Part shown: one piece after another, positions 511 through 47,932 of the stretch
How the letters are laid out: each line of letters starts with the position of its first letter
Numbering within the stretch: the first letter of the stretch is position 1
NCBI RefSeq assembly: GCF_001891125.1
Contig: NZ_CP015247.1
Location: forward strand, 328,501 to 392,500
Source: Leuconostoc suionicum
Lineage (GTDB): Bacteria > Bacillota > Bacilli > Lactobacillales > Lactobacillaceae
Direction: 5' to 3'
DNA length: 64,000 nucleotides
The notes under the pieces: model-generated
What the model was told of the DNA's origin: nothing
The model's input: the letters and a program-made list of their open reading frames with translations, nothing else
Database searches by the model: none
Program-made: the position numbers and the translations under genes

Positions 511-564
511 AGGAGGAAAAACATTTAGAATTGCGTTACAATTTGCTAAATGTTCTGATAGTTA
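511..564 (+). promoter_or_regulatory. Hairpin-bridged ribosome binding site
   Basis: AGGAGG at 511-516 lies 48 nt before the only in-frame ATG (565); the frame has a stop (TAG) at 559. Between them 520-528 (AACATTTAG) pairs perfectly with 546-554 (CTAAATGTT), and inside it 529-533 (AATTG) pairs with 539-543 (CAATT), loop CGTTA. Folding removes 35 nt and leaves 3 + 10 nt between the Shine-Dalgarno and ATG. The same layout precedes ltaS. Confidence 0.6.
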
Positions 565-1218
565 ATGGCAATGCATCAATATTTCATGGGAATGAGTCAG
601 CTTGAACTCATTAACCGAGCTCCAGGATTTTTTAAATACCAGCCCCACAATGTAGCGGCACACTCATGGAAAGTAACTCAAATTGCTCAGTTTTTAGCTG
701 ATGTTGAAGAACAAAATGGTGCTCAAATTAATTGGAAATCAGTTTATGAAAAAGCTTTAAATCACGATTATACAGAAAGATTTATCGGTGACATTAAAAC
801 GCCAGTGAAATATGCGACGTCGACATTACGTTCAATGTTAGCTGATGTTGAAGAATCAATGACTGAAAACTTTATTAAAACAGAAATTCCTGAACAATTT
901 CAAGCCGCGTATACACGGCGTCTAGGGGAAGGAAAAGATGATACGATTGAAGGCAAAATTTTATCCATTTCTGATAAAATTGATCTTCTCTATGAAGCAT
1001 ACGGTGAATTAGAAAAGTTTAACCCTGAACCCGTTTTTGTAAATATTTTTCAAAGTAGTTTGGAAGCACTCGCCGAATTCAAAGATATGGCCAGTGTGAA
1101 GTATTTGGCAAAAGAAATATTACCGGAAGTTTTTAAAGAAGACTTCATTCATAAGGATTTATTGTTTGATTTAGCTAAAAGTTTGTTACCTGATTTTGCC
1201 GAGGTGGTTAATAATTAA
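565..1218 (+). CDS. HD-domain phosphohydrolase, YfbR-like
   Basis: This 217-residue protein resembles the YfbR-like HD hydrolases (5'-deoxynucleotidase relatives) of lactic acid bacteria. Metal-ligand candidates are visible: H33 in AAHS, H67-D68 in LNHDYTE, and D137 in ISDKID, which is the usual H...HD...D order. A helical protein with no signal peptide, so cytoplasmic. The exact nucleotide substrate is not known from sequence. ATG 565 is the first possible start, since the frame is closed at 559; ATG 571 is an alternative and fits relatives equally well. No Shine-Dalgarno sits close; the AGGAGG is 48 nt upstream across a hairpin. It lies between mprF and a Nudix gene, probably in one transcript. 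Confidence 0.75.
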   Translation: MAMHQYFMGMSQLELINRAPGFFKYQPHNVAAHSWKVTQIAQFLADVEEQNGAQINWKSVYEKALNHDYTERFIGDIKTPVKYATSTLRSMLADVEESMTENFIKTEIPEQFQAAYTRRLGEGKDDTIEGKILSISDKIDLLYEAYGELEKFNPEPVFVNIFQSSLEALAEFKDMASVKYLAKEILPEVFKEDFIHKDLLFDLAKSLLPDFAEVVNN

Positions 1219-12391: not shown

Positions 12392-12647
12392 CAACAAGTA
12401 CAATACGAGTGATTTGAAACAAATTTTAAATCGGTTACGTGCTATGATGGATTCAACAGATAATAGTGTTCAAACTCGTCGCTTTGACGCTTTTGGCATA
12501 GAAGCACTACAGGTCTCTTATGATCAATTAACCAAAATTTGGACAGTCCAAGAACACCGAGAAATTCGACAGTTTCAATTTGATGATATTGATTTGGTTG
12601 CAATTGAAATCTATGATGTTTTACATGATTTCAAACTAATTTATTAG
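12384..12647 (+). CDS. ykuJ: YkuJ-like DUF1797 protein
   Basis: 87 residues. The C-terminal pattern FQFDDIDLVAIEIYDVL matches the end of Bacillus YkuJ (FDNIDMVSIEIFELL), and the length is close to the family's 79. A small cytoplasmic alpha/beta protein of unknown function. Start ATG 12384 has a perfect AGGAGG (12371-12376) 7 nt upstream; the longer frame from 12342 would lack a site. It overlaps the UPF0104 gene by 8 nt, so both are translated from one mRNA. Its TAG stop is part of the AGGAGG that serves ltaS. Confidence 0.82.
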   Translation: MLDNKYNTSDLKQILNRLRAMMDSTDNSVQTRRFDAFGIEALQVSYDQLTKIWTVQEHREIRQFQFDDIDLVAIEIYDVLHDFKLIY

Positions 12648-12698
12648 GAGGGTGCTTAACACATTGTATTAAGATGTTATCAAGCACGTTTATAACAA
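12646..12698 (+). promoter_or_regulatory. Hairpin-bridged ribosome binding site of ltaS
   Basis: AGGAGGG (12646-12652) overlaps the ykuJ stop and lies 47 nt before ATG 12699. GTGCTT (12652-12657) pairs with AAGCAC (12682-12687), and inside it AACA (12658-12661) pairs with TGTT (12675-12678). Folding removes 36 nt and leaves GTTTATAACAA (11 nt) before the ATG. The frame has a TAA at 12693, so no earlier start exists, and no other Shine-Dalgarno is near. Confidence 0.6.
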
Positions 12699-14837
12699 AT
12701 GATAGGTTTATTAAAACGAATCTCAAACCCCAAAAATCTCTGGCGACAAATTAAAAGAACCATGGATACATCGGCACCGATAGTTTGGTTTTTCATATTA
12801 AACGTTGTCCTCGTTTGGTTGAAGACATATGCCGAATATCATATGAATTTTAATTTGGGTGTGGAAGGGTCAACGCAACAATTTTTGTTGTTTTTGAATC
12901 CCATCCCAACGGCTATTATATTTTTAAGTATTTCCTTGTATTTTCGTGGCGTAACCAGTTATTGGTTGGCAATCATTTTTAATTTGATTCAGTCAATATG
13001 GTTATTTGCAAATATGCTATACTACAGAGAATTTTCAGATTTCCTATCAATGGGTATTTTGGGTTCGGGTAGTTCAACTGGAACAAATCTTGGTAAATCG
13101 ATTGCGGCAATTATTCATTGGACGGATTATCTTGTCTTTATTGATATTGTGATTTTAATTTTTCTAGTGGTTTTCAAGCAATTAACGATTGATCATAAAG
13201 GCGTTCAAAAAAAGTTTGCTATTTTAACGACGCTTTTTGGTATCATCTTGATGTTAGTAGATTACGGTATCGCATCAACGGATCGTTCAGGTTTGTTGAC
13301 TCGTTCGTTTGATAATAATTACATTGTTAAATATTTAGGATTGAATGAATATGCTGTATTTAACGCGGTACAAACTTATAATCAAACCGAAAGCCGGAAG
13401 CGAGCAAAGCCATCCGATTTAGCTAAAGTAAAAAAGTTTGTTGCTACGCAAAAACTGCCTGCCAATATTCAATATTATGGTACGCAAAAAGGTAAGAACG
13501 TCTTTATGATTCATTTGGAATCATTTCAGCAGTTCTTAATAGATTATAAAGTTGATGGGCAAGAAGTCACACCCAACTTGAACAAATTCTATCATGACCA
13601 AAACACACTAAGTTTTGATAATTTCTATAACCAAGTTGGTCAGGGGAAGACATCTGATGCGGAGATGATGCAAGAAAACTCCCTATATGGTTTGGCTACA
13701 GGTTCTGCCATGGTCAAGTATGGTACGAGTAATACGTTTGAGTCATTACCAGCTATCTTAGGACAAAGAGGCTATACGACCGCTGCCTTTCACGGAGATG
13801 TTGCAAGTTTTTGGAATCGTGATAATACCTATAAATCGTTTGGCTATAATTACTTTTTCTCTAAAGCTTATTATGCTAATGCAAACAAAGCAAACTATAA
13901 CATTGGTTATGGGATGAAAGATAAAATTTTTCTGCGAGATAGTGCGAAGTATATTGAACAGCTCCCACAACCATTTTATGCGAAGTTAATCACCGTAACA
14001 AATCATTATCCATATGATTTGGATAAACAAAATATCAGCTTCCCGGCAACAAAAACTGGAGACAAAACTGTTGATGGTTATGTTCAAACAGCTCACTATT
14101 TGGATCAGGCATTCGCTGAGCTGATGAGTTATCTCAAAAAAGCAGGGTTGTATGACAATTCTGTATTTGTGCTGTATGGTGATCACTATGGAATTTCTGA
14201 AAACCATCAGGATGCTATTGCGCAGTTACTTGGTAAAGATAAAATTACTAATAATGATTTAGCTACTTTCCAAAAAGTGCCGTTCATGATTCATGCGACA
14301 GGGCTAAAAGGTGGTATCGACCATACATATGGTGGTGAAATTGATATGTTGCCAACTTTAATGGATGTGCTTGGAATCCCAGATAATAATATGACTATGT
14401 TTGGCCAAGATATGCTGTCCTCGAAGTACGATGGTAAAGTGGTTTTCCGTGATGGTGATTGGATAACGCCAACGTATACGAAATACAATAACCAGTATTT
14501 TAATACTAAAACTGGTGATCAAGTTACGCTTAAATCAGATAAAAAGTTGCAAAAAGTTGCAAAACAAATGTCCGCTTATGCAACAAAAGTTTTGGGTTAC
14601 TCCGATGCAGTTATTACAGGCGACTTATTGCGCTTTGATACTTCAAATTCTGATTTTAATCTTATTAACAAAAAGAATTATAATTATAAAAAAACTGAGG
14701 GACTGGCTTCGCTTAAAAAAGCACTCAAGTCTAATCCTTCGAGTGTATTAGCCAAAAATAAAGGCAAATCAACGCTTAGCGACTATGTCACAGATGCACC
14801 GGAATTAAAAACAGATTCTGACGACGATGACAAGTAA
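12699..14837 (+). CDS. ltaS: Lipoteichoic acid synthase
   Basis: 712 residues: five N-terminal membrane helices (about 25-210) and an extracellular alkaline-phosphatase-like sulfatase domain. LtaS takes glycerol-phosphate from phosphatidylglycerol and polymerises it on the glycolipid anchor outside the cell. The metal and nucleophile residues are visible: Glu in IHLESFQ (about 274), catalytic Thr in QGKTSDAE (about 318), and Asp-His in YGDHYG (about 494). The tail is acidic (DSDDDDK). Only ATG 12699 is possible before the first helix except M22, which has no ribosome site. It closes a cluster that starts with anchor glycosyltransferases. Initiation seems to depend on a hairpin-spaced Shine-Dalgarno. 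Confidence 0.92.
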   Translation: MIGLLKRISNPKNLWRQIKRTMDTSAPIVWFFILNVVLVWLKTYAEYHMNFNLGVEGSTQQFLLFLNPIPTAIIFLSISLYFRGVTSYWLAIIFNLIQSIWLFANMLYYREFSDFLSMGILGSGSSTGTNLGKSIAAIIHWTDYLVFIDIVILIFLVVFKQLTIDHKGVQKKFAILTTLFGIILMLVDYGIASTDRSGLLTRSFDNNYIVKYLGLNEYAVFNAVQTYNQTESRKRAKPSDLAKVKKFVATQKLPANIQYYGTQKGKNVFMIHLESFQQFLIDYKVDGQEVTPNLNKFYHDQNTLSFDNFYNQVGQGKTSDAEMMQENSLYGLATGSAMVKYGTSNTFESLPAILGQRGYTTAAFHGDVASFWNRDNTYKSFGYNYFFSKAYYANANKANYNIGYGMKDKIFLRDSAKYIEQLPQPFYAKLITVTNHYPYDLDKQNISFPATKTGDKTVDGYVQTAHYLDQAFAELMSYLKKAGLYDNSVFVLYGDHYGISENHQDAIAQLLGKDKITNNDLATFQKVPFMIHATGLKGGIDHTYGGEIDMLPTLMDVLGIPDNNMTMFGQDMLSSKYDGKVVFRDGDWITPTYTKYNNQYFNTKTGDQVTLKSDKKLQKVAKQMSAYATKVLGYSDAVITGDLLRFDTSNSDFNLINKKNYNYKKTEGLASLKKALKSNPSSVLAKNKGKSTLSDYVTDAPELKTDSDDDDK

Positions 14838-27878: not shown

Positions 27879-28277
27879 ATGGCGGGTAATTTTAAAAGAA
27901 GACAATCAAATATTACACCGTTAAACCCAGCGATAGCACGTGAAATTAAAAAATCAGAACGTGCTAACTTGGAAGCGGCAAAACATTATCGCAAGGCGCA
28001 CGCGCGACGGGAGAAAAAAATTCTTCTTTTTGGCGGGTTGATAGCGATGATTTTTGTTGTGCAACTCTTGATAGGCCAAGTGAAGCTGCATGCGGCTAAT
28101 CAAGAACTAACGAATACGCAAGATCGTTTGGAAAAAGTTCAAAAGACCAATACTGATTTAACTGCTGATACAAAACGTTTAAAAGATGCAACGTACTTAC
28201 AGCAACTACTACGAGACAAATATGGTTATTCAAAGCAAGGAGAACTTGTTTATAATTTACCATCCGATAATAATTAA
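27879..28277 (+). CDS. divIC: Septum formation initiator, DivIC/FtsB-like
   Basis: 132 residues: a basic cytoplasmic N-terminus, one membrane helix at about 49-66 (KILLFGGLIAMIFVVQLL), a coiled coil at about 70-110 and a short outer tail. This is the DivIC/FtsB layout of the divisome. AGGTAG lies upstream of the ATG. The S1-domain gene (yabR) that often follows is missing, and tilS comes directly after. The TAA stop is part of the AAGGAAG used by tilS. Confidence 0.9.
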   Translation: MAGNFKRRQSNITPLNPAIAREIKKSERANLEAAKHYRKAHARREKKILLFGGLIAMIFVVQLLIGQVKLHAANQELTNTQDRLEKVQKTNTDLTADTKRLKDATYLQQLLRDKYGYSKQGELVYNLPSDNN

Positions 28278-28307
28278 GGAAGCGCCCTAGGGGTGCCTTT
28301 TTCGTAT
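28276..28307 (+). promoter_or_regulatory. Hairpin between Shine-Dalgarno and tilS start
   Basis: AAGGAAG (28276-28282) lies about 26 nt before ATG 28308. GCGCCC (28282-28287) pairs with GGGTGC (28291-28296), leaving CTTTTTCGTAT (11 nt) before the ATG. The structure also looks like a weak terminator for divIC, because five T follow. Both readings are possible. Confidence 0.5.
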
Positions 28308-29600
28308 ATGACAGAAAAAATTTTGCAAACTATACAACAGTATAATTGGCCAGAGACAGTTATCGTTGCAGTTTCTGGTGGCGTTGACTCCGTAGTTCTA
28401 GTTCATGCGTTGTCAAAAACTAAGGCCAACCTTGTTATTGCACACGTGAATTACAGGTTACGTGAGGAAAGTGATGATGATGCTGCATTCGTTCGGGAGC
28501 TTGCGACTCAAACTGGTGCTATATTTGAAGAACAGGTCTGGCAACATATTCCTGACCATGCAGTGGAAAAAGCTGCTCGTCAATTTCGTTATGATTTTTT
28601 TGAGGATTTAGCTCAAAAGTATCATACAAGCACAATCGCTGTTGCCCATCACGCAGACGATCAAGCAGAAACAGTTCTTCTTAAGATGATACGCGGAGGG
28701 CAACTGCAACAAATGGGTGGCATGCAAACAAAGAATCATAAAGTGATTAGACCATTTTTGTCGATAACTAAGCAAGAACTAATTACTTATGCACAGGATA
28801 ATCAGTTGGGGTGGCGCCAAGATAAAACGAACTTTGACGTTAATTATACGCCGAGAAATTTATTGCGTAACGATGTTTTACCAAAATTGACAACTATTAA
28901 TCAACGAGCCGTCAGACATATTAATGATATGGCCGCACAAATTGTACAACAACAGCAGTTAATTGATAATCAGGCTAAAATATACGCTAAGAATATTCAA
29001 GACTGGCAGAAAATTCCTACACTTTGGCAGCTACCAACACTGAAATATTGGCTCCAAGAAAATAATCTATTTAACATTAAAGAAAATCAATTGCAACAAA
29101 TGATTCAATTGCTGAGCAATACCCATAAACCGAACGGAAAAATTGCTCTGGCAGATAATTTTGAGTTCATAAAAAACTATCAAAAAATTAGTATACAAAA
29201 ACAACAAAATATGGCACAAGTTTTGACGCCAGTTATGTTAAAATTGAATCAATGGCATTCTTTTGCAAAAACAACGTTCATATGGACTGATAATGTCCCT
29301 ATGAACGGCCAATCATTTATCAAGTTTCAGCTTACTCGTTCATTAGCATACCTAAGCTTGCGCCCAGCAAAAGCGAGTGATAAAATTGCTCTCATAAACG
29401 GCCATAAAAATTTACGACGTTTAGCGATTGATGAGAAACTAACGCCGCAAGAACGTACAATGATGTGGGTTCTTGCGACAGCCGATGATGAAGTAATTGC
29501 AGTGCATTTACGCAGTAATCAGTGGCGTGTAAATGCGGATTTTGCTGTTAAAGAAAATACACAGCCATATTGGCTCGTATGTCAAATTGAGGAAACCTAA
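28308..29600 (+). CDS. tilS: tRNA(Ile)-lysidine synthase
   Basis: 430 residues. The PP-loop SGGVDS is at residues 23-28 (VAVSGGVDSVV), followed by the N-type ATP pyrophosphatase domain and TilS C-terminal domains. It changes C34 of the CAU-anticodon isoleucine tRNA to lysidine, which is essential for AUA decoding. ATG 28308 is preferred; GTG 28293 lies in the hairpin and has no site. The Shine-Dalgarno is AAGGAAG across a hairpin. hpt follows with no gap, the conserved tilS-hpt-ftsH order. Confidence 0.93.
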   Translation: MTEKILQTIQQYNWPETVIVAVSGGVDSVVLVHALSKTKANLVIAHVNYRLREESDDDAAFVRELATQTGAIFEEQVWQHIPDHAVEKAARQFRYDFFEDLAQKYHTSTIAVAHHADDQAETVLLKMIRGGQLQQMGGMQTKNHKVIRPFLSITKQELITYAQDNQLGWRQDKTNFDVNYTPRNLLRNDVLPKLTTINQRAVRHINDMAAQIVQQQQLIDNQAKIYAKNIQDWQKIPTLWQLPTLKYWLQENNLFNIKENQLQQMIQLLSNTHKPNGKIALADNFEFIKNYQKISIQKQQNMAQVLTPVMLKLNQWHSFAKTTFIWTDNVPMNGQSFIKFQLTRSLAYLSLRPAKASDKIALINGHKNLRRLAIDEKLTPQERTMMWVLATADDEVIAVHLRSNQWRVNADFAVKENTQPYWLVCQIEET

Positions 29601-34909: not shown

Positions 34910-34982
34910 TCCGACTTAGCTCAGTTGGTAGAGCACCTGACTGTTAATCAGGTTGTCGTCGGTTCGAGCCCGACAGTCGGAG
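34910..34982 (+). tRNA. tRNA-Asn (GTT)
   Basis: Acceptor arms TCCGACT and AGTCGGA with discriminator G. The anticodon loop in CTGACTGTTAATCAG gives GTT. The T-arm stem is GTCGG/CCGAC. CCA is not encoded. Its own promoter and terminator flank it. Confidence 0.97.
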
Positions 34983-34989
34983 TTTTATG

Positions 34990-35022
34990 AGAAGCAAATC
35001 GTTCTGGTTTGCTTCTTTTTTT
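34990..35022 (+). terminator. Terminator of the first tRNA-Asn
   Basis: AGAAGCAAA (34990-34998) pairs with TTTGCTTCT (35008-35016), followed by a T run. Confidence 0.9.
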
Positions 35023-35035
35023 ATGTGATAAACTG

Positions 35036-35064
35036 TTGACATATTTTCCATCACATGGCATAAT
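35036..35064 (+). promoter_or_regulatory. Promoter of tRNA-Asn/tRNA-Thr
   Basis: TTGACA (35036-35041), 17 nt, CATAAT (35059-35064), followed by the same downstream block as in the first tRNA-Asn promoter. Confidence 0.82.
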
Positions 35065-35093
35065 AATATAGTTGTGTTAGCAACGAAAGTCAT

Positions 35094-35166
35094 TCCGACT
35101 TAGCTCAGTTGGTAGAGCACCTGACTGTTAATCAGGTTGTCGCCGGTTCGAGCCCGGCAGTCGGAG
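35094..35166 (+). tRNA. tRNA-Asn (GTT), second copy
   Basis: Same as the first copy except for the T-stem, GCCGG/CCGGC instead of GTCGG/CCGAC: both partners of one base pair changed. tRNA-Thr follows 4 nt later in the same transcript. Confidence 0.97.
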
Positions 35167-35170
35167 TTTC

Positions 35171-35243
35171 GCCGACGTAGCTCAGTTGGTAGAGCACGGG
35201 TATCGTAAACCTGGGGTCGGAGGTTCGATTCCTCTCGTCGGCA
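35171..35243 (+). tRNA. tRNA-Thr (CGT)
   Basis: Acceptor arms GCCGACG and CGTCGGC, discriminator A. The anticodon stem CGGGT/ACCTG encloses loop ATCGTAA with anticodon CGT, reading ACG. CCA is not encoded. Confidence 0.95.
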
Positions 35244-37894: not shown

Positions 37895-37966
37895 TAGCTC
37901 GTGAGAGAATCGAACTCTCGATTCCGCCGTGAAAGGGCAGCGTCTTAGCCACTTGACCAACGAGCC
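37895..37966 (-). tRNA. tRNA-Glu (TTC)
   Basis: On the reverse strand the gene starts GGCTCGT and ends ACGAGCT plus discriminator A. The anticodon arm GCCCTTTCACGGC gives TTC. D-arm TGGTCAAGTGGCTAAGA is typical for Glu. CCA is not encoded. Confidence 0.95.
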
Positions 37967-45960: not shown

Positions 45961-46032
45961 TTGCCCCTGCTGGATTCGAACCAGCGCGTAGTGGCACCAG
46001 AAGCCACCGCCTTACCGCTTGGCCAAGGGGCA
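45961..46032 (-). tRNA. tRNA-Gln (CTG)
   Basis: On the reverse strand acceptor TGCCCCT pairs with AGGGGCA, discriminator A. The anticodon arm GTGGC-TTCTGGT-GCCAC gives CTG, reading CAG. D-arm GCCAAGCGGTAAGGC is typical for Gln. CTG-anticodon Gln tRNAs are less common in Gram-positives, which often use only TTG. Confidence 0.93.
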
Positions 46033-46749: not shown

Positions 46750-46795
46750 AGGAGGAATGTGCTGCGAGGTGACTTCGCTTCGCGTACGAAATATT
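46750..46795 (+). promoter_or_regulatory. Structured spacer between Shine-Dalgarno and nagA start
   Basis: AGGAGG (46750-46755) is 40 nt before ATG 46796. Between them GCGAGG (46764-46769) pairs with CTTCGC (46773-46778), and TTCG (46779-46782) pairs with CGAA (46787-46790). Looping out both leaves about 13 nt. An in-frame ATG at 46757 is only 1 nt from the AGGAGG, too close for normal use. Confidence 0.5.
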
Positions 46796-47932
46796 ATGGC
46801 AAAACTAATTAAAAATATTGATCTTTACACAGGGTATCAACATATGGAAGATGCCTTCATGCGTTTTACAGATACGGTTGAGGAAGTCGGTTACATGATT
46901 GACTTCAGGGAAAAAGCTGATGACGAATTGCTAAATGAGGCCTCAGGAAAGATAATTGTTCCAGGGTTCATTGATGTTCATAAACATGGCGGTTATGGAT
47001 TAGACACGATGGATGGTGATCCCGAAAAGTTAAACATCATGATTAATACGATGGTTACGGAAGGAATTACATCATTATTCCCAACAACAATTACACAATC
47101 ACCAGAAAATATTGAACGTGCTTTGAAAACCATTGATCAAGTTGCCAAAACTAATCCGGTTATTCAGGGAATTCATCTAGAAGGGCCTTTTATTAACAAA
47201 GCCTTTATGGGTGCACAACCAGAAGAATATATTATTGATCCCAACACAGAACTTTTGAAAAAATGGTATGCACTTTCTGGCGAACGTATTCGGTTAGTGA
47301 CCTATGCGCCAGAAAACGGTGGTATTCCTGATTTCGAAGAATTTATGCTACAGCATAACATTATTCCATCAATTGGACATTCTAACGCGACACGAGCACA
47401 ATTGGTACACTCGCGTGCAACACATATTACTCATTTGTATAATGCCCAAAGGCCATTACAACATCGTGAACCTGGCGTCACGGGACATGGTATGCTAGAG
47501 GGCGCAATTACTGGTGAATTAATCGCCGATGGTTTTCATATTGTACCTGACATGTTACAATTAGCTTTTAGAATCAAAGGTGCTCACAAATTAGAATTAG
47601 TAACTGATTCAATGAGAGCTGAAGGATTAGGAAATGGTATATCTGAACTTGGCGGACAAAAAGTTACTGTTAAAGATAAGCAAGCGCGCTTAGATAATGG
47701 TCACTTGGCTGGTTCTGTACTGGCTTATGATGATGCGTTCACCAACATCCAAAAATTCACAAGTGCTGATATTAATGATGCAGTGCAAATGAGTTCAGTT
47801 AACCAAGCACGTGAGTTTGGGCTAACCCAAAAAGGCAACTTATCCGAAGGTAAGGATGCTGACTTTAACATTTTTAACAAGGAATTGCATTTAGAGGCGA
47901 CGTATTCACTTGGTCGCCGTTTTGCACGGTAA
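46796..47932 (+). CDS. nagA: N-acetylglucosamine-6-phosphate deacetylase
   Basis: 378 residues, amidohydrolase fold. Motifs: FIDVHKHGGYG (metal H-x-H), GIHLEGPF (metal Glu), SIGHSNAT, THLYNAQRP and LVTDSM with the catalytic Asp. It splits GlcNAc-6-P into glucosamine-6-P and acetate, feeding amino sugars from cell wall or medium into glycolysis. ATG 46796 gives the family N-terminus; the longer frame from 46757 adds 13 residues from the hairpin region. nagB is not in the window. The GntR gene follows 4 nt after the stop. Confidence 0.93.
   Translation: MAKLIKNIDLYTGYQHMEDAFMRFTDTVEEVGYMIDFREKADDELLNEASGKIIVPGFIDVHKHGGYGLDTMDGDPEKLNIMINTMVTEGITSLFPTTITQSPENIERALKTIDQVAKTNPVIQGIHLEGPFINKAFMGAQPEEYIIDPNTELLKKWYALSGERIRLVTYAPENGGIPDFEEFMLQHNIIPSIGHSNATRAQLVHSRATHITHLYNAQRPLQHREPGVTGHGMLEGAITGELIADGFHIVPDMLQLAFRIKGAHKLELVTDSMRAEGLGNGISELGGQKVTVKDKQARLDNGHLAGSVLAYDDAFTNIQKFTSADINDAVQMSSVNQAREFGLTQKGNLSEGKDADFNIFNKELHLEATYSLGRRFAR

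Follow-up and report, generated by a model that had tools for sequence, protein, structure and literature searches.

How can translation begin on a gene whose only good ribosome-binding sequence lies far upstream of its start codon? The question is raised by ltaS, which is located in a 64,000-nucleotide stretch of the Leuconostoc suionicum genome (NZ_CP015247.1, positions 328,501 to 392,500 of the forward strand; hereafter the window, with coordinates counted from its first letter). The Shine-Dalgarno (SD) sequence of this gene, AGGAGG, is 47 nt from the ATG, a distance that shrinks to 11 nt once an intervening hairpin is folded out. Sequence comparison and folding suggest, with a probability that we put at about 0.86, that ltaS, yfbR, nagA, gntP, proV/opuAA, cydD, pepF and others carry putative hairpin-bridged (split) ribosome-binding sites. 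Such a site would begin with a strong SD and have a stable hairpin 0-4 nt beyond it; an unpaired and for the most part A/U-rich linker, 8-13 nt long, would lead on to the start codon. At ltaS these elements are as follows.

12646..12651, + strand: distant SD of ltaS, AGGAGG, seen in the sequence; overlaps the ykuJ stop codon TAG at 12645-12647
12652..12687, + strand: putative bridging hairpin of ltaS; outer arms GTGCTT (12652-12657) and AAGCAC (12682-12687)
12688..12698, + strand: 3' linker of ltaS, GTTTATAACAA; same letters in all four genomes with the layout
12699..14837, + strand: ltaS, lipoteichoic acid synthase type protein of 712 aa; start ATG at 12699-12701; Pfam Sulfatase

The overlap with the ykuJ stop codon and both distances had been given in a preliminary description of the window and hold as given. 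It is equally correct that ltaS has no nearer SD (no match of at least 4 at 3-13 nt before the ATG) and that no earlier start is available, because an in-frame TAA lies at 12693-12695; in alignments, ATG 12699 is in register with the ATG of relatives. The stem itself was described correctly for its outer arms, whereas the proposed inner AACA/TGTT pairing gives way to a predicted ACAUU/GAUGU helix. When folded in 81 nt of context, the leader of the window strain is modestly above chance (z -1.43; 17 of 200 shuffles equally good). For the 47-nt gap alone, 3.4% of 1000 shuffles are equally good, and the corresponding values are 0.4%, 2.7% and 0.4% in the relatives G016, G001 and G015. (Genomes are denoted by handles: G000 is the window genome, G015 L. 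litchii, G017 L. pseudomesenteroides and G003 L. carnosum.) The hairpin also contains an out-of-frame ATG (12674-12676), which pairs within the predicted inner helix; concealing this decoy start may be a further effect of the fold. The protein scores 766.9 bits with the NCBIfam LtaS model, below the cut-off of 970. A second LtaS-like protein, 45% identical, is encoded outside the window (G000:C1:34020-36083) and was also found in the 18 other genomes of the genus that were searched, in pieces in G018.

A recurring layout in Leuconostoc genomes

The layout was scanned for in five Leuconostoc genomes, each sampled over ~400 kb (about a fifth of the genome): the window and its surroundings in G000 (400 kb), the matching regions of G001 (400 kb) and G015 (396 kb), and added samples of G012 and G007. 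Our canonical filter called for an SD of at least 6 matches, a single hairpin domain 0-4 nt beyond it (dG <= -3.5, shuffle P <= 0.1), a linker of 8-13 nt and an ATG, with no local SD of at least 5 matches. Among genes with a distant and no local SD, 35 of 117 had this layout, as against 94 of 3766 with permuted motifs; the hits were spread over all five genomes (G000 6/27, G001 9/24, G015 8/17, G012 5/24 and G007 7/25). The same filter found 0 of 24 in control genomes, from two other genera and from E. coli (G035 0/6, G031 0/16, E. coli 0/2; permuted 16/987), a small control drawn mostly from one genome, G031. When the linker limits were lifted and single-domain hairpins no more than 4 nt from the SD were taken, 34 of 42 3' linkers were 8-13 nt long, the rest being 3, 16-19 and 37 nt. 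Genes with both a local and a distant SD had the layout in 0 of 41 cases, compared with 34/117 for those without a local SD, a count that differs from 35/117 since the shuffles were redrawn. Thus, the preliminary description was right to suspect a set within one bacterium, and the set is larger than it had guessed: ~30 sites per genome are inferred because 6 were found in 400 kb of a 2.05-Mb genome.

In a scan of 385 open reading frames (ORFs) with a homologue across the G000, G001 and G015 samples, to which fold significance and conservation had been added, 7 of the 16 genes tested had P <=0.05 and 6 were kept in both relatives; with permuted SD motifs (60 permutations) these figures were 105 and 24 of 1193. 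The five genomes combined yielded 30/80 versus 208/2010 permuted, or 41/117 versus 361/3087 with a length-based ORF caller. Across the cases found, the linear SD-ATG distance ranges from 27 to 83 nt, and the effective spacing is 8-15 nt in canonical hits; the medians of ordinary SDs in the five samples are 6-8 nt. The longest hairpin, of ~73 nt, belongs to uvrA in G007. Domain and family assignments revealed no evident common pathway among the genes. The 16S tail GGATCACCTCCTTTCT occurs at 3 places in the genome and its anti-SD is canonical; a longer 16S-tail pattern had 0 matches in the genome.

Within the window, the preliminary description had pointed to similar layouts at 511-564, 28276-28307 and 46750-46795. 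The first is strongly supported and the last also stands; both precede genes as listed here.

511..516, + strand: distant SD of the yfbR-like gene, AGGAGG, seen in the sequence
520..554, + strand: putative bridging hairpin of the yfbR-like gene, AACATTTAG..CTAAATGTT; other complementary stems stand in its place in other Leuconostoc species
565..1218, + strand: yfbR-like gene, 5'-deoxynucleotidase family, HD domain; start ATG 565; Pfam PF12917
46750..46755, + strand: distant SD of nagA, AGGAGG, seen in the sequence
46759..46787, + strand: putative bridging hairpin of nagA; in G015 a different hairpin, with a gap 4 nt shorter and an effective spacing still of 11
46796..47932, + strand: nagA, N-acetylglucosamine-6-phosphate deacetylase; start ATG 46796; NCBIfam TIGR00221 (299.3 bits, cut-off 225.65)

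The yfbR-like protein matches PF12917 with 153 bits (cut-off 25.9) and an NCBIfam 5'-deoxynucleotidase model with 72.6 bits, under its cut-off of 122; an in-frame TAG at 559 precedes its ATG. In G000, nagA has an in-frame ATG 1 nt past the SD, which is not a conserved start because the corresponding ATG in G015 is out of frame with the gene. Further G000 cases lie outside the window, at gntP (C1:512083), cydD (523417), proV/opuAA (308126) and pepF (395748). The ltaS site, used as a 201-base query, had a single match in the genome at E 0.001; this, together with stems that are unlike between sites, rules out a mobile repeat.

The remaining site falls away. At 28276-28310, directly ahead of tilS, the hairpin is followed by TTTTT in 4 genomes, and the SD is gone in G001, one of three relatives; because of both features the site is not counted in the set. 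It looks like a terminator, or an attenuator overlapping the start region (GTG 28293 or ATG 28308). By eye, no T run of an intrinsic terminator follows the stems of ltaS, yfbR, nagA or gntP. Rfam produced 5 matches over the window at gathering scores, all of them tRNA and none at a hairpin site, and no match at gathering score at three gntP loci; for the hairpins of the window and of these gntP loci, a known RNA family or riboswitch was rejected. The five tRNA genes lie at 34910-35243, 37895-37966 and 45961-46032, three of them clustered.

A separate survey of 80 named loci around ltaS, which has little power, found the layout in 1/4 tested genes of Leuconostoc, 0/1 of Fructobacillus, 0/1 of an unclassified Lactobacillaceae record and 5/11 of other genera, with 0 genes tested in Convivina. 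Four of those five represent a single Weissella gene whose gap looks coding; the fifth comes from Lactiplantibacillus. In the Weissella loci L061, L063, L064 and L065, a conserved small open frame, read by eye, follows AGGAGG and reaches the start of the next gene; it resembles a translationally coupled small protein that has escaped annotation.

Stem turnover and constant effective spacing

The best cases are gntP and yfbR, whose stems vary by species yet suit their own partner half best. We compared each species' own stem halves with pairings to the halves of other species in a swap test of 20,000 permutations. Reading of the gntP leader covered 17 of the 19 genomes, G008 and G013 having given short matches only; a stem lies between AGGAG and the start codon in 17/17, with a GTG start in G002 and ATG elsewhere, and the fold has P <=0.05 in 14/17. 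Its stems include TAACGGTC/GACCGTTA, AACGTGTT/AACACGTT, AACGCGT/ACGCGTT, GCGCGT/ACGCGC, AACGTAT/ATACGTT and AGGCG/CGCCT, among others. For the 14 distinct sequences the mean energy was -9.12 kcal/mol with the own half versus -5.86 with foreign halves, and 0/20,000 permutations were as low. Counted by position, as alignments misplaced the 3' arms, the first 7 pairs were 85.7% paired versus 69% when re-paired (0/20,000).

At yfbR, the 11 distinct sequences averaged -13.89 kcal/mol with their own halves versus -6.73 with foreign ones (0/20,000). Among the 13 of 19 genomes in which this leader was read, 11 are bridged, 8 of them passing the filters, and the other two, G014 and G017, constitute a natural deletion, with a plain SD 11 nt from the ATG and no hairpin. 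The linker in G003 holds a 5-match GTGAT, which was scored as a local SD. At opuAA, the swap test with 6 distinct sequences gave 61/20,000; 6 of the 13 genomes counted are bridged and 7 have a local SD, and in the five genomes outside the count, which the start pattern missed (G003, G005, G006, G008 and G013), a GGAGG shortly before the ATG is seen by eye in 5/5. Thus, the compensatory changes that the preliminary description had proposed to look for are strong at gntP and yfbR, and at ltaS they amount to two pairs identified by eye.

Effective spacing was held where linear spacing shifted. In G000, G001 and G015, respectively, the gap of yfbR measures 48, 47 and 37 nt at an effective spacing of 13 nt in each, that of nagA 40, 40 and 36 nt at 11 nt, and that of opuAA 76, 75 and 74 nt at 12 nt. 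The match is less exact at cydD (58, 59 and 53 nt; effective 10, 12 and 12). At ltaS, gntP and pepF both linear and effective spacing are constant in these genomes.

The ltaS leader was read in 19 Leuconostoc genomes. AGGAGG at the ykuJ stop, the hairpin and the identical 11-nt linker occur together in 4 (G000, G016, G001 and G015), with outer arms GTGCTT/AAGCAC, GTGCCC/GGGCAC, GTGCCC/AGGCAC and GTGTTT/AAGCAC, in that order. Pair 5 is accordingly T-A, C-G, C-G and T-A, and pair 6 is T-A, C-G, C x A and T-A; pair 4 is a wobble in G015. By eye, two pairs of the stem are altered on both sides. Another 12 leaders have a 5-match local SD located 5 nt before the ATG and no AGGAGG-type SD at the end of ykuJ; in 5 of these, weaker SD-like matches occur at a distance of 31-90 nt. 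The preliminary description had held that loss of the hairpin in relatives still expressing ltaS would speak against its reading; the hairpin is lost in these 12, which keep the gene, but the distant AGGAGG-type SD is missing as well. Hairpin and distant SD thus appear and vanish jointly. G014 and G017 have AAGGAG 12 nt from the ATG, with a bridging fold no better than chance (0.255 and 0.225), and G010 has neither a local SD nor the bridged layout. In G014 and G017 (L006 and L007) an in-frame TTG lies 9 nt before the ATG and 4 nt from AAGGAG; the ltaS start in this group might be different.

Genes bridged in some Leuconostoc species carry a plain local SD in others. The pgi, fabZ and BMP-type lipoprotein genes have local SDs of 5, 6 and 4 matches in G000, G001 and G015; all three are bridged in G012, and in G007 pgi and fabZ are bridged, as is the BMP gene by eye. 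The fabZ and BMP stems are unlike between G012 and G007. The distribution of ltaS and opuAA is the reverse of that of these three genes.

Possible mode of action and rival explanations

At a bridged site the hairpin would remain folded and project from the platform of the 30S subunit next to the SD/anti-SD helix. The ribosome would then meet the SD and the start codon ~8-15 nt apart, irrespective of their linear distance, and the hairpin would be folded on the ribosome and required for initiation. An effective spacing a few nucleotides above normal fits a linker that has to pass the foot of the helix. With a stem sequence that is free to change and a layout that species gain and lose, the hairpin looks in its basic role more like a spacer than a sensor. 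In Leuconostoc, hairpin-bridged initiation is probably routine: a few tens of genes in each genome would rely on it, among them housekeeping genes (depending on the species, ltaS, pgi, fabZ, uvrA and recR), and it would have been gained and lost repeatedly. The ribosome would read the spatial rather than the linear SD-start distance, and the translation machinery may tolerate folded spacers to an unusual degree.

A hairpin in this position could also act as a regulatory switch responding to temperature, a ligand, a protein or translation of ykuJ, and the preliminary description had accordingly proposed that ltaS is on when folded. A ribosome terminating on ykuJ would be expected to cover the ltaS SD and part of the 5' arm, and a switch could be added onto bridging. 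Yet the best of the four outermost pairs is predicted to be more than 0.95 formed from 10 to 45 C in 11 of 11 gaps from 7 genes, and no melting is predicted in that range; going by modeled folding, we rejected a thermal switch, whether an RNA thermometer or its reverse. Moreover, no stem sequence is common to the sites, no Rfam family matches those of the window, and the genes share no evident pathway. The nagA SD sits 94 nt past the preceding ORF, and therefore coupling of the ykuJ type is not general. Given these points, together with stem turnover and the plain local SDs of other species, we did not retain the on-when-folded proposal, and we consider switching an unlikely account. It is less probable still that the distant SD and hairpin act in mRNA stability or processing, as does the STAB-SD of Bacillus cry3A, while the ATG is used independently of any SD through its A/U-rich linker. 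The linker is indeed rich in A and U, and at ltaS four species share the same letters, but a stabilizer would need neither the absence of a local SD (0/41 genes with one have the layout), nor a narrow 3' linker (34/42 at 8-13 nt), nor an effective spacing that is held where the linear spacing shifts, and these features weaken this explanation. It is very improbable that the sites reflect chance hairpins, misplaced start codons or short coding frames lying between the SD and its gene, even with four Weissella hits in which, by eye, a small frame continues into the following start, and one canonical G001 hit that is coding. In-frame stops lie just ahead of the ATG at ltaS and yfbR; yfbR gaps range from 37 to 65 nt with differences that are not multiples of three, ruling out a mini-frame between SD and ATG; the swap tests contradict the idea for both gntP and yfbR (0/20,000 each); and the permuted-SD and local-SD controls stand against it.

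Besides the size of the other-genus control, several observations weigh against hairpin bridging. The first, loose scan did not convince: it found 9/16 genes, as against a permuted-SD mean of 5.5/19.6 and maximum of 15, and with a looser filter two genomes of other genera in the same family gave 0/6 and 2/16 (G031; permuted 26/251 and 26/330). The printed p-values are too strong, because the 8-13 nt limits are post hoc and orthologues of related genomes are non-independent. The 35 canonical hits include at least one (G001, MEKNYIARMREK) whose gap we take to be the coding end of yfbR, and also tilS of G015. One Leuconostoc phage had 0 sites in 49 genes, of which 10 lack a local SD of 5 matches. 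At ltaS, outer pair 6 is broken in G001, the swap test gave 3378/20,000 with just 4 distinct sequences and hence low power, and the SD and ATG are predicted to be largely paired when the naked strand is folded in context. Members failing the filters include G004 (P 0.14), G014 (P 0.075) and G010 (outside the energy limit at -3.6) at gntP, and G006 and G012 at yfbR, with effective spacings of 17 and 15; in G016 the minimum-energy fold of the yfbR gap differs, though its arms are intact. Finally, some foreign halves, mostly those of close relatives, fit equally well or better in the swap matrices.

Relation to known systems and significance

Accommodated ribosome-binding sites in phage T4 are reportedly the subject of primary work by Nivinskas in 1999 and by Malys and Nivinskas in 2009. 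PMC3014915 describes a structure that shortens the SD-AUG distance from 27 to 11 nt at gene 25, with support from mutations and DMS, and from 22 to 5 nt at gene 38; the gene 25 structure is retained in close relatives and missing in distant ones. The Leuconostoc sites resemble these split sites, as described there, in that the SD is too distant from the start codon and a folded spacer shortens the gap. In keeping with a split site of the gene 25 type, the SD is distant with none nearer (47 nt at ltaS, and likewise in the set), the hairpin gives a usable if somewhat long effective spacing (8-15 nt), and pairing is conserved, according to the swap tests, at gntP, yfbR and opuAA. The T4 cases, however, are single phage genes, whereas Leuconostoc, a bacterial genus, has the layout in a set of chromosomal genes, with hairpins of up to ~73 nt, full stem turnover, and gain and loss between species.

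RNA thermometers conceal the SD and melt on heating. They share with the Leuconostoc sites a hairpin at the ribosome-binding site, but in Leuconostoc the bridging stem does not include the SD, and it is not predicted to melt between 10 and 45 C. Structured standby sites (PMC3936740) are similar in that the 30S platform accommodates a hairpin without fully unfolding it; those hairpins lie upstream of the SD, whereas the Leuconostoc hairpins lie between SD and start. Elsewhere in the literature, the Leuconostoc motif of PMC5217627 sits within an ABC transporter gene, and PMC5434544 and PMC4631060 refer to the T4 gene 25 work in a general way. A search of open-access titles and abstracts found no such set in a bacterium, subscription literature being outside the search, so that a report elsewhere is possible. 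The type of device is thus known from phage, and its use as a bacterial gene set, with stems that turn over fully, was not met with in the literature searched.

Gene finders and translation models look for an SD a few nucleotides ahead of the start and penalize spacer structure. A genus in which folded spacers serve as a set would lead to corrected start calls and expression predictions for these food-fermentation bacteria, and would provide a natural library of what the 30S subunit tolerates between SD and start. It would also exemplify an evolutionary route in which spacing is preserved while sequence is free.
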